This document shows positions 39,292 through 44,420 of a stretch of 63,283 nt of DNA, piece by piece (the stretch's first letter is position 1; every line of letters begins with the position of its first letter). Both the position numbers and the translations under genes were made by a program. Location of the stretch: contig CAITND010000196.1 of NCBI GenBank assembly GCA_903893625.1, positions 1 through 63,283 on the forward strand. Direction: 5' to 3'. Source of the stretch: an uncultured Oscillatoriales cyanobacterium (GTDB taxonomy: Bacteria; Cyanobacteriota; Cyanobacteriia; Cyanobacteriales; Microcoleaceae). The notes under the pieces were generated by a model. The model had not been told where the DNA came from and made no database searches. It saw only the letters and a program-made list of their open reading frames with translations.

Positions 39292-39423
39292 TAAAAGATG
39301 AGTTAAATTAGGAGGAAGTGGCTTTTAAGCCGATTAAAGAAATCACTAACAAACCCAAGAAAAATAACCGCCCAAAACTAACCGAATCTTTAAAAATAAT
39401 TACTCCCATAATGACAGTATCGT

Positions 39424-39451
39424 GTAGAGACGTGCCATGGCGCGTCTCTAC
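39424..39451. repeat. GTAGAGACG-family palindrome, intergenic copy 2
   Basis: 28 bp, identical to 26500-26527, and both are followed by GTGG. It lies between the membrane pentapeptide gene and the STAND gene, where it could serve as a terminator or act on mRNA stability. Confidence 0.85.
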
Positions 39452-39535
39452 GTGGGATTGAGGGATCATCTGTAGTATATTCAGGATTTCATATTAGGTG
39501 TAAAATAGAAAAATAGTAAAACAAGAGAAAATGGG

Positions 39536-42500
39536 ATGCCGGAGGAAGACCGCAGTGTAGAAATTGGGGGGATGGATGGTGGCGTCAGTCCTATTATTAC
39601 TGGCGATCGCAATACTGCTACAATTACTATCACGAATTACTATTACCGTAAAAATACTACAGGAGTACCTGTTGAATCTACGGATACGGCTGATGAAAAT
39701 CTACCCTGTCCTTATCGCGGTTTGTTTCACTTTGGGCCAGATGATGCGGCGTTTTTCTTTGGACGGGAGGTATTTGTAGAAGAACTTTTTGCCGCAACTC
39801 AAACCCGTAAATTTATACCCGTGTTGGGTGCGTCGGGAAGTGGGAAATCTTCGGTGGTGTTAGCGGGATTAGTGCCTAAATTGCAACAAGTCGGACACTG
39901 GAAGTTTACCCATTTTCGACCCGGTGAAGGGGATGATCCATTCCATGCTCTGGCTTTGGCACTGGTTCCTTTGTTCCTGCCTCATCTATTTGGCGATGAC
40001 AAATTAAAAGAAACTCGCAAGATTGCAGAATCTCTGCGTAACGAAGTTTATCCTCTATCTTATATTTTAACTGAAATTCAACACAACTATCCTCAAGAGC
40101 GGGTGTTGTTAATTGCCGATCAATTTGAAGAACTTTATACCTTGTGTCCCGATCAGAAAGTTCGCCATCATTTCCTAGATACCTTATTAGCTTACTTTCA
40201 ATCTTCCCCTGACAATACTAATGTATTGGTGGCAACCATGCGGGCTGATTTCTTGGGAAATGCCCTTTCCTATCCTAAATTTGGGGAAGTGTTGCGAAAT
40301 GCTGATATCAAAATTAGGTCGATGAACCGTGAGGAACTTTCCCAGGTAATTGTTAAACCTGCGGAAAAGTTGGGAATAACCTTTCAAGATGGACTGGTAA
40401 AACGAATTTTAGATGATGTAGAAGACCAACCCGGAAATTTACCGTTACTAGAATTTGCATTAACAGAATTGTGGAATAAGCGTACAGGTAAACAATTAAC
40501 TCACCAAATCTATGAAGAAATTGGTCAAGTTGAAGGTGCATTAGCTCGCCATGCTGATCAGAAATATAGCCAGTTGACAGATGAGGAGAAGGAAAAAGTC
40601 CGGCGGATTTTTATTCAATTGGTGCGTCCGGGGGAGGGGGTAGAGGATACCAGACGCATAGCGATGAAAGCGGAATTGGGAGAACAAAGCTGGTCTTTAG
40701 TCAAACAATTGGCTGATGCTCGGTTGGTGGTGACAAGTCGCAATGCTGCCAGCCAAGAAACAGTAGAGATAGTCCATGAAGCTCTAATTCGCAATTGGGG
40801 AGAACTGCGAGAATGGATGAATACAGACCGCGTTTTTAGAGCTTGGCAAGAGCGACTGCGGGCTGCAAAGGGACAATGGGAAGCAACGAATCGAGATTCA
40901 GATTCATTGTTGCGAGGTGCAGCCTTAGCAGAAGCACAAGAAAAACTGAAGGAACGCCCAGAAGATTTAATTGATGAGAAAAATTTTATCGAGCAGAGTA
41001 TCCAAGAGCGCGATCGCCAACGCCACCGAACTATCATTACGTTTACTAGCTTCTCTGTAGTTGCTTCCGTTCTTGCACTTGTAGCTGGAATAGAGCGGTG
41101 GCATTCTGTCATTTCTGAAAAAAATGACCAACTTATAGTTCACACTCAGTCTTCAGAAGCCCTATTTACTTCCAATAAAAAGTTTGATGCACTTTTAGAA
41201 AGTATCAGATCTGGGAAACAAATGAAAGGAGAATTTGGCATCAAAGCTGATACGGAGATGCAAGTTGTAGGAGCTTTACTACAGGCAGTTTATGGCGTGA
41301 GAGAGCGCAATCGTTTTGAAGGTTATAACCAGCCATTTATTCGTGCTGCCTTCTCCGCAGATGGTACAAAAATTGCTGCGACAAATTTTGATGGTGCTAT
41401 TAAAATTTGGAATTTCAATGGCGCAGAAATAAAGACTATTAATCAAAAAAAATCAGGTAATATTAACAATCAGCCTATTAGTTTAGACTGCCCAGCCAAT
41501 AGTGTCAGCTTTAGCTCTAGTAGTAATACTATTGTTGCTAGCGATGGTGATAACATTAAACTTTGGGACTTTAATGGTAAAGAACTCAAAAGTTTTCCAG
41601 GCAAAGGAAAGGACGTTGTATTAACAAGCATAAGTAATGATGGCAAACTGATTGCTGCTGTTAGTCATCTTGGGAAAGTTACCATTTGGAATCAAAAGGG
41701 TGAAGAACTTGACACTTTTCAGAATTATGATAACTTCCTGCCTATGAGTATTCCTATTTTTAGTCCCGATAACAATATTCTTGCCTCTGCCGGTCAAGAA
41801 AATGTCATTCTTCGGAATTTAAACACTAAAACATCTACACCCTTAAAAAACGATTGGACAGTATGCAGCGTAGATTTCAACTCAAACAGTAGGGAACTTG
41901 CTGTTACTGAACTTCTAAGTAGAGTGAAACTTTGGAGTATCAAAGATCAAAAGCCGACTTTTTTCGAGGATTTGGGTGTTATAAGTGTAATTCATAGTTC
42001 TGAAGGACTCGTTTCTACTAATTGGGATGGCAGCATCAAATTCTGGCATTTATTCAATAACGAATGGCAAGTCGAATCTTGGAATGGTCATAGTGCTCCC
42101 GTGTGGAATGCAAGCTTTAGCCCAAATAAAAAGATGCTACTTTCTGTTAGTGACGACAAAACAATTAAACTCTGGAATCTTGAGGGTATAAAGCCACCAA
42201 GCTTTAGACCCAGTAATGGAAGTTTAGGAGATATTAGTCTTAGCCCAGATGGTCAAACCATTGCTACTGTTACTGCTGATGACTCCATCAAATTTTGGAA
42301 TCTGGATGGTACTCCTGCTAAAAAAACTTTTCACAAAGTCTCTGGTTTTAGCAAAATAACTTTCAGCCCTGACGGTAAGTATTTAGTTTCCAGCTTTCGC
42401 AGTATTGTTCAACTTTGGAATATTAATAGTGGAGAATCAAAGATTCTTATCACAGAAAAATTGCCTAGAGGTAAGAGGAATGATTTTGGCAGAGTTAGCT

Positions 42501-43177
42501 TTAGTTCGGATAGCAAAACTATTGCAATTGGAAGAGAAGATGGCACTATAAAACTTTTGCATCTTGATGGCACAGAAATCAAAACTCTTCAAGGAGGTAG
42601 CAAGATAGTTAGCTACAGCAAAAATGGTAAGATTATTGCTTCTGCTAGTAGTAACAATACTGTAAAACTTTGGAACTCCAACGGTAAAGAATTGTCAGCT
42701 TTGATAGGAAGCTCTTATCCTATTACCAGTTTGAGCTTTAGCCCAGATAGCCAAACTTTAGTAGCAGGAAATAAGAACGGAAATATTATAATTTGGGGAA
42801 TCAATGGAACAAAGCTTCAAACTCTTCAAGGTCACAATTCTGCTGTTAAGAGTTTAACTTTCAGACCAGACGGTAAGATTTTTGCCTCTGCTAGCGGTAA
42901 TGGTTCAAACGAAGATGATGGTACGATTAAATTTTGGAGCATTGATGGTATAGAGATTAAAACTTTTAAAACTAATAGTCCTAGCGTTTCTGGTATAAAT
43001 TTTAGTCGAGATGGCAAGATGCTAATCGTCGGAAAGCAAATGGAAGTAACTATGTGGAATTTGAATTTAGACTATCTACTTAGTAAAGGTTGTAATTGGG
43101 TACGCGATTATTTAGAGAATAATCCTCAAGTCAGTAAGAGCGACAAGCACCTCTGCGATGATGTTCCTAAGGAATGA
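39536..43177 (+). CDS. STAND NTPase (nSTAND1) with WD40 repeats
   Basis: 1213 residues. Order: a short N-terminal module RSVEIGGMDGG..ITGDRNTATI (6-30); an nSTAND1 NTPase beginning PYRGLFHFGPDDAAFFFGRE, with Walker A GASGSGKSS (98-106) and Walker B LLIADQFEELY (191-201); helical regions to about 490; a membrane helix (about 498-519, ITFTSFSVVASVLALVAGIE); then about 14 WD40 repeats (about 595-1185, motifs IKIWNFNG, IKLWNLEG, VKLWNSNG) and the usual closing LSKGCNWVRDYLENNP. STAND proteins are ATP-switched sensors that oligomerise on ligand binding. It has no catalytic effector of its own; the adjacent CHAT protease is the probable one. Confidence 0.88.
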   Translation: MPEEDRSVEIGGMDGGVSPIITGDRNTATITITNYYYRKNTTGVPVESTDTADENLPCPYRGLFHFGPDDAAFFFGREVFVEELFAATQTRKFIPVLGASGSGKSSVVLAGLVPKLQQVGHWKFTHFRPGEGDDPFHALALALVPLFLPHLFGDDKLKETRKIAESLRNEVYPLSYILTEIQHNYPQERVLLIADQFEELYTLCPDQKVRHHFLDTLLAYFQSSPDNTNVLVATMRADFLGNALSYPKFGEVLRNADIKIRSMNREELSQVIVKPAEKLGITFQDGLVKRILDDVEDQPGNLPLLEFALTELWNKRTGKQLTHQIYEEIGQVEGALARHADQKYSQLTDEEKEKVRRIFIQLVRPGEGVEDTRRIAMKAELGEQSWSLVKQLADARLVVTSRNAASQETVEIVHEALIRNWGELREWMNTDRVFRAWQERLRAAKGQWEATNRDSDSLLRGAALAEAQEKLKERPEDLIDEKNFIEQSIQERDRQRHRTIITFTSFSVVASVLALVAGIERWHSVISEKNDQLIVHTQSSEALFTSNKKFDALLESIRSGKQMKGEFGIKADTEMQVVGALLQAVYGVRERNRFEGYNQPFIRAAFSADGTKIAATNFDGAIKIWNFNGAEIKTINQKKSGNINNQPISLDCPANSVSFSSSSNTIVASDGDNIKLWDFNGKELKSFPGKGKDVVLTSISNDGKLIAAVSHLGKVTIWNQKGEELDTFQNYDNFLPMSIPIFSPDNNILASAGQENVILRNLNTKTSTPLKNDWTVCSVDFNSNSRELAVTELLSRVKLWSIKDQKPTFFEDLGVISVIHSSEGLVSTNWDGSIKFWHLFNNEWQVESWNGHSAPVWNASFSPNKKMLLSVSDDKTIKLWNLEGIKPPSFRPSNGSLGDISLSPDGQTIATVTADDSIKFWNLDGTPAKKTFHKVSGFSKITFSPDGKYLVSSFRSIVQLWNINSGESKILITEKLPRGKRNDFGRVSFSSDSKTIAIGREDGTIKLLHLDGTEIKTLQGGSKIVSYSKNGKIIASASSNNTVKLWNSNGKELSALIGSSYPITSLSFSPDSQTLVAGNKNGNIIIWGINGTKLQTLQGHNSAVKSLTFRPDGKIFASASGNGSNEDDGTIKFWSIDGIEIKTFKTNSPSVSGINFSRDGKMLIVGKQMEVTMWNLNLDYLLSKGCNWVRDYLENNPQVSKSDKHLCDDVPKE

Positions 43178-43382
43178 AAAATAAATAACTTGCACAATTA
43201 AACCCCAGAAACCTTGATCTACCGTAAACTATTGCCCAATTAGTCACCTTATTGGTTTTTCATTCCTAAGATTGAATCCACCCCAACGAAATCAAAGAGT
43301 TAAGTTGAGGATTTTTACAAAAAAAGTAGCAAGAAAACACCTGTTTTTCCTAGAATATATATAAAAAACCCATAAAAAAAAC

Positions 43383-44420
43383 ATGAAAAAAATCCTTATC
43401 CTCTCCGCCAACCCCAAAAACACAACTCATCTACGCCTTGATGAAGAACTGCGGGAAATCAAAAATACACTGCAACTTTCTCCCCATCGAGACGAATTTC
43501 AAATCATCACTGAATCTGCGGTACAAGTCGATGATTTAACCCGCTTCCTGTCTCACCATCAACCCACTATTGTTCACTTTTCGGGACATGGTTCAGGTAC
43601 GGATGGATTAATCTTAGAAAATCATTCTGGACAGTCCCAACTGGTCAGTACCCAAGCCTTAGCAAAGCTGTTTGATTTGTTTCAAGAACAAGTTGAATGT
43701 GTCTTACTCAACGCCTGCTATAGTGAGGAACAAGCCACCGCCATTCATCAACATATTGATTGCGTCGTGGGCATGAATCAAGCCATTGGAGATGCGGCGG
43801 CGATTAAATTTAGTGTGGGATTTTATACGGGTTTGATGGCAGGAAGAAATTATCAAGATTGTTTTGAAATGGGGTGTACCTCCATTGATTTGCAGGGAAT
43901 TCCAGAGTATTTAACCCCAAAGATTAAAAATCGGCGACGACGTGATCAGACCAAAAAACCGACAAATTCACTCAAATCTGACAAAGATAATGGTATAGTT
44001 AATAATAAAAATTCCTCAAACCGCTCCGTTTCTATTGGTTCTATTGGGCGTGATTTTAGTGGCCCCATTCAAACAGGAGACAGCAACACGGCAAACATCA
44101 ATGTTCAACAAGTTAATTTACCCGCATCTACAAGCATCAATATAGAAACAGAACTCAATGCTTTACAGGAGATATTGACAAAATTAGAAACCTCAGACCG
44201 TCGAAAAATTGAGAATGCTTTTGAAGATGCTCAAGAGGAGTTAAAGAAGCCAAAGCCCGATAAAAACGAGGTGGGCATGGCATTAGAACGAGCTTTGAAT
44301 TATGCCCAAAAAGCCGAAGGGTTTGCTGCTGTAAATGCCAAACTTCAGCCACACCTAGCTAATACAATTGCTTGGTTAGGGGAAAATTGGCATAAATTAT
44401 TAAATAGGAGCCATTTCTAA
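43383..44420 (+). CDS. CHAT-domain (caspase-like) protease with TGDxN module and helical tail
   Basis: 345 residues. The N-terminal 1-175 is a CHAT protease: start [20 protein letters not shown], catalytic His69 in [12 protein letters not shown], catalytic Cys112 in [12 protein letters not shown]. The linker is followed by [20 protein letters not shown] and SNTANI (214-239), closely matching residues 6-30 of the STAND protein upstream, and then a helical domain (about 253-340). CHAT proteases act as executioners when recruited by STAND sensors. The start is 205 bases after the STAND stop, same strand. Its end overlaps the convergent hypB by 21 bases. Confidence 0.88.

Follow-up and report, generated by a model that had tools for sequence, protein, structure and literature searches.

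Matching short tags on an adjacent STAND NTPase and CHAT protease in an uncultured Oscillatoriales cyanobacterium

Introduction

Two described systems pair a STAND-type NTPase with an effector encoded next to it. Effector-associated domains (EADs; Kaur et al. 2020, 2021), as set out in the available portions of PMC7159879 and PMC8195603, are small non-catalytic modules on a STAND-type core, with a second and more similar copy on the adjacent effector; one of them, EAD10, is presented there as an effector-recruiting domain of mixed alpha+beta structure (PMC7159879). Bacterial amyloid signalling sequences (BASS; Dyrka et al. 2020, taken here from excerpts of PMC7889193, PMC8086366 and PMC12261475) are short pair-matched motifs, one at the start of the NLR and one after the effector domain encoded by the next gene, with CHAT as a less frequent effector (PMC7889193) and repeated effector-side copies in BASS4 and HET-s (PMC8086366). 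Here we describe a gene pair of related layout in contig CAITND010000196.1 of an uncultured Oscillatoriales cyanobacterium (assembly GCA_903893625.1; the whole stretch analysed, 63,283 nucleotides, is called the window). The pair consists of a STAND sensor gene and a CHAT protease gene whose products share a short tag, to which a first-pass annotation of the sequence had drawn attention.

The window pair follows the EAD principle in that a small non-enzymatic module is present on the core and on the adjacent effector, the neighbouring copies being most alike. In two loci (L203, L204; L, G and C numbers are our own for loci, genomes and contigs) the tag motif also forms the beta half of EAD10-like domains. 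Unlike EADs, the window tag spans only about 25 residues, lacks a helical half and gives no EAD10 match, and on the effector it lies between CHAT and a helical domain. With BASS the pair shares the short matched motif and where it is placed, N-terminal on the NLR and C-terminal to the effector domain (PMC7889193), and repeated effector-side copies, seen here in a Tolypothrix CHAT protein, are reported there for BASS4 and HET-s (excerpts of PMC8086366). It differs from BASS pairs in that the effector is CHAT rather than Bell, although CHAT is allowed as a rarer effector (PMC7889193), and in the predicted helical domain of about 90 residues that follows the tag. The window pair resembles BASS pairs in gene layout, and by analogy its tags may take an amyloid form.

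The SAVED-CHAT protease of PDB entry 8tl0, which is activated by a CRISPR signal, by its name bears a SAVED domain and not a STAND-shared tag. The APAF-1/caspase apoptosome likewise joins a WD40 sensor and STAND NTPase to a caspase-fold protease through a homotypic module (available text of PMC7159879), but the window pair uses a short motif instead of a CARD and the proteins are just distant relatives. Among the literature matches listed, in which subscription papers are sparsely covered, no publication title concerns this gene pair or tag. The first-pass annotation knew of no named system; the principle itself is already published for EADs and bacterial amyloid pairs (PMC7159879, PMC8195603, PMC7889193), and the finding is therefore less new than had been supposed. 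The pairing principle is known, and the coordinated exchange of tags is the part worth following.

Results

The tag and the domains of the window pair

The tag occupies residues 6-30 of the STAND protein (RSVEIGGMDGGVSPIITGDRNTATI) with its counterpart at residues 214-239 of CHAT, where the first-pass annotation had placed both. In a single BLASTP comparison of the two proteins the tag segment was the top match (E = 0.002), and no further segment matched significantly, the next-best reaching E = 0.34. The Smith-Waterman score of 59 was equalled by none of 10,000 shuffles of the STAND N-terminus. Because a CHAT-side profile (10 rows) and a STAND-side profile (8 rows) built from relatives with the same tag family, A, align at E = 1.3e-12 (probability 97.8), we regard the match as settled at the level of sequence.

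Both proteins retain the residues expected of their families. The STAND protein matches nSTAND1 in Pfam at E 5.5e-120, and WD40 in addition; its Walker A (G98, S100-K104, S106) and Walker B (D195-E198) residues are the same in all 13 STAND proteins aligned, so that an nSTAND1 domain with intact Walker motifs stands before superstructure-forming repeats, as in STAND NTPases. The protease gene encodes a CHAT domain (Pfam E 3.2e-11) with a caspase fold, compared mainly over residues 1-188, and its intact His/Cys dyad, residues 69 and 112, is the one named in the first-pass annotation; the protein is a putative protease. A sequence search of solved structures with STAND residues 1-460 returned none at E <= 0.1. 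Against PADLOC-DB 2.0.0 the STAND protein had a single match, HEAT-ARM_XIII, within its WD40 region, and CHAT matched the chat, SAVED_CHAT and, weakly, PDC-M14B models, the last through similarity of residues 237-320 to the PDC-M14B C-terminus.

Matched tags recur among CHAT loci

We evaluated the match across 80 loci from named genomes, 58 stretches from other genomes and the window. CHATs of 480 residues or more, tails shorter than 45 residues and near-duplicate tails (80 reduced to 70) were excluded before counting, leaving 70 non-redundant free-standing CHAT tails. CHATs without a usable neighbour were then dropped, which reduced the set to 65; a neighbour was usable if it lay within 1.3 kb on the same strand and had 150 residues or more. 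In this blind test a match was a score of at least 50 against the neighbour's first 100 residues. As many as 33 of the 65 tails matched the N-terminus of their own neighbour; when tails were set against neighbours taken from other loci, 138 of 4160 comparisons reached the threshold. Permuting the neighbours gave a mean of 2.6 matches and a maximum of 11 in 20,000 permutations, and reversed tails gave none (0/65). When the whole partner was searched, the best match fell within its first 100 residues for all 33 matching tails. At thresholds of 45, 55, 60 and 70, respectively, 34, 28, 24 and 16 of 65 tails matched (non-cognate comparisons: 182, 111, 87 and 49 of 4160).

Six of these loci, contributing seven CHATs, share a longer domain; with them removed, 27 of 58 tails matched through short tags only, with CHAT upstream in 20 and the partner upstream in 7. 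The longer match is a TIR domain on both proteins in L092, and a P-loop region in L088 (AAA_35 on its CHAT) and L180 (judged by inspection). In L134, L135 and L139 it is a segment that looks helical by inspection and across which no Pfam family was found in the five of these proteins scanned. L092 (6001-9051) thus places a CHAT-TIR protein beside a TIR-CHASE2 protein that shares the whole TIR in place of a short tag, and the CHAT tails of L134, L135, L137 and L139 have the longer helical-looking segment in common with the next gene, which encodes GUN4 in L135 and iSTAND in L139.

A Pfam scan of ten partner proteins showed NACHT in five (L022, L030, L057, L062, L127), NB-ARC in two (L025, L126), iSTAND in one (L082), nSTAND1 with an FGE-sulfatase domain in one (L029) and EAD10 in one (L140, whose match lies at the partner C-terminus and is not among the 33). 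Given that the partners include NACHT, NB-ARC, iSTAND and nSTAND1, several STAND switch types use one coupling to CHAT. Among the 152 flanking open reading frames (ORFs) of the 33 loci no cluster recurred in more than three loci, save a CHAT-containing cluster in five; those recurring in up to three were pentapeptide proteins, WD40 pieces and one further group.

Partner specificity and natural tag exchanges

For a cognate test we used 21 pairs (23 before two were dropped) chosen by adjacency and nSTAND1 only. Their summed cognate score was 1277, against a permutation mean of 765, and none of 20,000 permutations was as high; when permutation was restricted to tag families, 267 of 20,000 were. 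In 19 of the 21 pairs the cognate partner outscored every STAND N-terminus of another family.

A joint replacement is seen between two Laspinema loci, L042 and L051, in which the CHAT domains are 86% identical, the nSTAND1 domains are 86% identical and both tags have been replaced. Their tails scored 90 (0 of 2000 shuffles as high) and 38 (13/2000) against their own STAND, versus 17 (1784/2000) and 29 (76/2000) against each other's. Exchange of the STAND protein is seen between L020 and both L031 and L162, with CHAT identities of 94 and 96%, STAND identities of 37 and 41% (for L162 over just the 168 residues of the domain that lie within the stretch) and the tag retained. The genome of the window itself holds a second pair (L165, contig C261) with a different matched tag and reversed gene order; the two pairs score 59 and 60 with their own partners and 32 and 23 when crossed. 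On contig C11 of the same genome a single gene (L166, 6285-9410) fuses CHAT, nSTAND1 and WD40, and no tag was seen in the approximately 20 residues between the end of CHAT (~188) and the start of nSTAND1 (211).

The tags are matched, partner-specific and exchangeable. Tag matching between partners is well supported by these comparisons, and it is probably through the tag that each sensor is assigned the protease it fires. Since the tag is particular to the pair, it could also hold paralogous pairs of one genome apart.

Distribution of the tag

A profile of tag A, the window type, was searched against 386 cyanobacterial genomes. At most 21 of up to 42 first candidates were scored in the genomes listed, and for this reason genomes without a tag match are not proven empty. 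Nine genomes matched at E <= 0.01 and six at E < 1e-3, all six with two or three copies within 8 kb; in the remaining three a single match at E ~0.01 is about what chance would give over 386 genomes. In the window genome the profile matched just the two genes (E <= 0.01). The first-pass annotation had proposed this search for recurrence of the module in neighbouring STAND and CHAT genes, and three of the six genomes do carry STAND/CHAT pairs. G374 and G091 both have the tag on a STAND and CHAT pair, with the G091 STAND in two pieces. The other three genomes have different partners: in G355 the tagged STAND-WD40 protein adjoins a 144-residue protein made of the tag and a helical domain, without CHAT, and G334 and G060 have multi-gene loci whose tagged proteins include caspases, EAD10-like domains and NTPases of the NACHT or another AAA/STAND type. 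The 144-residue protein (L202, 5961-6395) may be a protease-free adaptor.

Tag A is also present on both proteins of a pair that did not contribute to the profile and that is encoded on a mobilizable Tolypothrix PCC 7601 plasmid. STAND has it once and CHAT twice in tandem, one copy being full and the other partial. The STAND of this pair (L228, 6001-8715; Tolypothrix sp. PCC 7601 plasmid NZ_CP064888.1) has just 523 residues and is too short for the WD40 part. Relatives of the window CHAT domain are sporadic, occurring at E <= 1e-20 in 45 of 386 genomes, and 30 plasmid records hold relatives at E <= 1e-30.

Relation to EAD10 and RHIM motifs

The EAD10 family (PF19954) was not matched by CHAT at E <= 1 (all five families), by STAND among the best 25 of 56 families, or by either tag segment at E <= 10. 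The tag profile (A2) aligned with six EAD10-like proteins of G334 and G060, in their beta half (profile A4; L203, L204), four of the six above and two below the Pfam EAD10 cut-off, with an hhalign probability of 95.4 and E 1.8e-8, a value favoured by selection because these loci had been found with the tag profile itself. As a control, another tag type, B, did not match A4 (E 0.01, probability 4.1); type B shows no detectable relation to tag A.

As an independent sample, 19 EAD10 domains were collected with the Pfam model from 5 of 100 genomes of the order. Against these the tag profile A2 gave E 0.18, the best of 30 column-shuffled controls giving 0.055, and A4 gave E 4.1e-12, chiefly through the helical half by our reading of the alignment. 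The 19 typical domains carry a different beta half, of the type GKYNVNIG...IHIGD. Because they differ and do not match, we rejected a general identity of tag A with the EAD10 beta half. More than one beta motif, tag A among them, seems to accompany EAD10-like helical halves. Comparison of L203/L204 with L229-L248 shows TGDxN-type and GKYNVNIG...IHIGD-type beta halves, as if this were a swappable part. In L203 (4193-7837) the EAD10-like beta half has a run of six-residue units (NNNVIG type) that looks like a beta-solenoid.

A relation of the window tag to RHIM was also rejected. The core shared by RHIM and BASS3, G-(I,V)-Q-(I,V)-G (given for RHIM in the available text of PMC7885112), has PIQTG and PIITG in its place in the window tags, and neither the tag profile nor an EAD10-type tail retrieved a RHIM protein from the PDB at E <= 10. 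One CHAT tail, that of L140 (7069-8560; G197, contig C18), is itself an EAD10 domain (E 3.7e-11) containing the RHIM core GIQIG (excerpt of PMC7885112). Its neighbour carries the same region, on a contig with nine EAD10 matches, and typical EAD10 domains have IHIGD at this position. EAD10 and RHIM-like motifs may be linked.

Proposed mechanism

We consider it probable that the window pair is a two-component STAND/caspase-like module in which the matching tags dock with each other. Sequence evolution lends the matching strong support, and we infer physical contact of the tags. In the course of events that seems most likely from what is known of the STAND, NLR and CHAT families, a ligand would bind the WD40 propeller and the nSTAND1 NTPase would then oligomerise with ATP. 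The clustered N-terminal STAND tags would nucleate those of CHAT; through crowding the CHAT domains would turn active and cleave their target, so that the cell would be harmed or killed, in defence.

The tag itself is probably a short, beta-forming motif. In a monomer model of CHAT, residues 187-244, tag included, have a predicted local distance difference test score (pLDDT) below 50; this disorder and the repeated effector-side copies point to a motif that may fold on assembly, though low model confidence at the tag is expected anyway because the alignment mixes tag types.

A wider reading, which we put forward tentatively and with less than even confidence, is of a swappable code. In this code a constant CHAT would be joined to several kinds of NTPase through many short, unrelated tags, each unstructured alone, which would assemble into a heterotypic amyloid or beta-solenoid only on nucleation by the STAND oligomer. 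Tag A would be one tag of many and would in some EAD10-like domains supply the beta half as well; because both tags are exchanged together, several NLR-caspase circuits could be insulated within one cell.

Matched tags would offer a testable rule for assigning sensors to proteases in bacterial NLR-like systems, for which the natural tag exchanges are ready-made experiments. They also suggest a single coupling strategy with longer effector-associated domains and amyloid-type motifs as its variants. Should the tags seed each other, one two-gene bacterial cassette would combine an apoptosome-like layout with necrosome-like assembly.

Counter-evidence and alternative explanations

Several observations weigh against docking through matched tags. 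Taken alone the window pair is only moderately convincing evidence for the match, because the margin over locus-wide shuffles is thin: 20 shuffles of the CHAT tail against every ORF of the locus reached 57, compared with 59 for the real tail, whose own STAND ranks second of 21. L043 and L078 fail the cognate test. L015 retains the tag on a 7.9-kb contig with no nSTAND1 protein in the 1.8 kb that precede CHAT or the 5.2 kb that follow it, and L019, with no nSTAND1 in the 3.5 kb before CHAT, has lost it (L017 starts too near a contig end for tag or partner to be judged). In both window tags a proline, unfavourable within a beta strand, precedes the core isoleucine. The unstructured tag of the monomer model is compatible with assembly and no demonstration of it, and tag A has no detectable relation to typical EAD10 domains. 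The earlier proposal of a partner-matching module is supported: by its own criterion a module found mainly in isolated proteins would have refuted it, and this was not the case, since copies co-occur in all six genomes at E < 1e-3. Against it stand tag type B, found in three genomes and twice in only one of them, and the 32 of 65 CHAT tails that match no neighbour.

The thin margin and the modest E = 0.002 would also suit a resemblance by chance or composition, for example between Gly/Asn/Thr-rich linkers. We rejected this on the non-cognate, permutation and reversed-tail controls (0/65 reversed against 33/65 real tails; 0/20,000 permutations; profile comparison 1.3e-12), which leave it hardly any probability. 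It is quite improbable that each tag self-assembles only its own protein, the likeness having arisen when one gene copied its neighbour's tag and the copies drifted together without contact. Tags within a family are indeed alike on both sides and one Tolypothrix CHAT bears two copies, but the coordinated exchange of both tags in pairs that are 86% identical calls for a reason to match, and the tag is kept when the STAND protein is exchanged. A tether is somewhat easier to credit, although still improbable: the tag would hold CHAT inactive on STAND until ligand binding freed it, acting as tether or inhibitor and not as recruiter. The evidence for pairing is of matching only and is equally expected under such a permanent tether; against it, permanent attachment looks workable from the CHAT-nSTAND1-WD40 fusion of the window genome, contrary to release as the trigger, and the CHAT of L015, on a contig without an nSTAND1 gene, would lack its restraint.

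The remaining alternative accepts docking of the tags and concerns its purpose, which could be stress-regulated cell death, development or kin discrimination in place of phage defence. The nearest published frameworks put weight on a multicellular way of life (PMC7159879, PMC8195603), PMC7889193 leaves open what bacterial amyloid signalling leads to, and among the PADLOC models of named STAND defence systems none matches the STAND part. Sporadic distribution, plasmid-borne relatives and presence or absence as a unit suit a defence cassette, and we judge a purpose outside defence rather unlikely.

Genomic setting

The features of the pair are collected in Table 1. It sits within a hydrogenase cluster (hypF, hypB, hypA) and is present or absent as a unit: in the nine other genomes of the genus no CHAT or STAND gene lies within ~1.5 kb of hypB. 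Homology with the congeneric locus L208 ends at window position 39418 and restarts at 44414, the last 7 bases of the CHAT gene lying beyond this junction, so that about 5.0 kb with both genes stand here against about 330 bp in L208, part of a small membrane-protein-like ORF. The two genes were acquired here together, or else lost together in the relatives. The pair stands in place of most of the small ORF, which we take to be membrane-transporter-like and of which a remnant persists at the left edge of the pair (window ~39307-39418; L208 1069-1386). We rejected the window's pentapeptide gene as a third component, as it lies near hypB in five of the nine congeners, all without the pair (~0.45 kb off in four, 1.1 kb in one). 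A scan for promoters and terminators found sites no more frequent than in shuffles.

Table 1. Positions of the STAND/CHAT pair and its parts in the window
Feature	Position	Strand	Basis
STAND sensor gene, 1213 residues: tag, nSTAND1 NTPase, WD40 repeats	39536..43177	+	ORF, Pfam
STAND-side tag, residues 6-30	39551..39625	+	sequence match, profile comparison
nSTAND1 NTPase, Pfam residues 59-455	39710..40900	+	Pfam
WD40/beta-propeller region, ~residues 601-1178 (limits from Pfam stretches)	41336..43069	+	Pfam
CHAT protease gene, 345 residues	43383..44420	+	ORF, Pfam
CHAT-side tag, residues 214-239	44022..44099	+	sequence match, monomer model
Predicted CHAT C-terminal helical domain, residues ~254-343	44142..44411	+	monomer model
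Two-gene segment missing from congeneric genomes	39419..44413	.	comparison with congeners

Among relatives of the pair, L016, L018, L067 and L125 have a short or split STAND frame while CHAT is open; since some of the assemblies are draft or metagenome, assembly errors are possible in the split frames. In L125 the two STAND pieces are separated by a 555-residue ORF on the opposite strand, presumably transposase-like.

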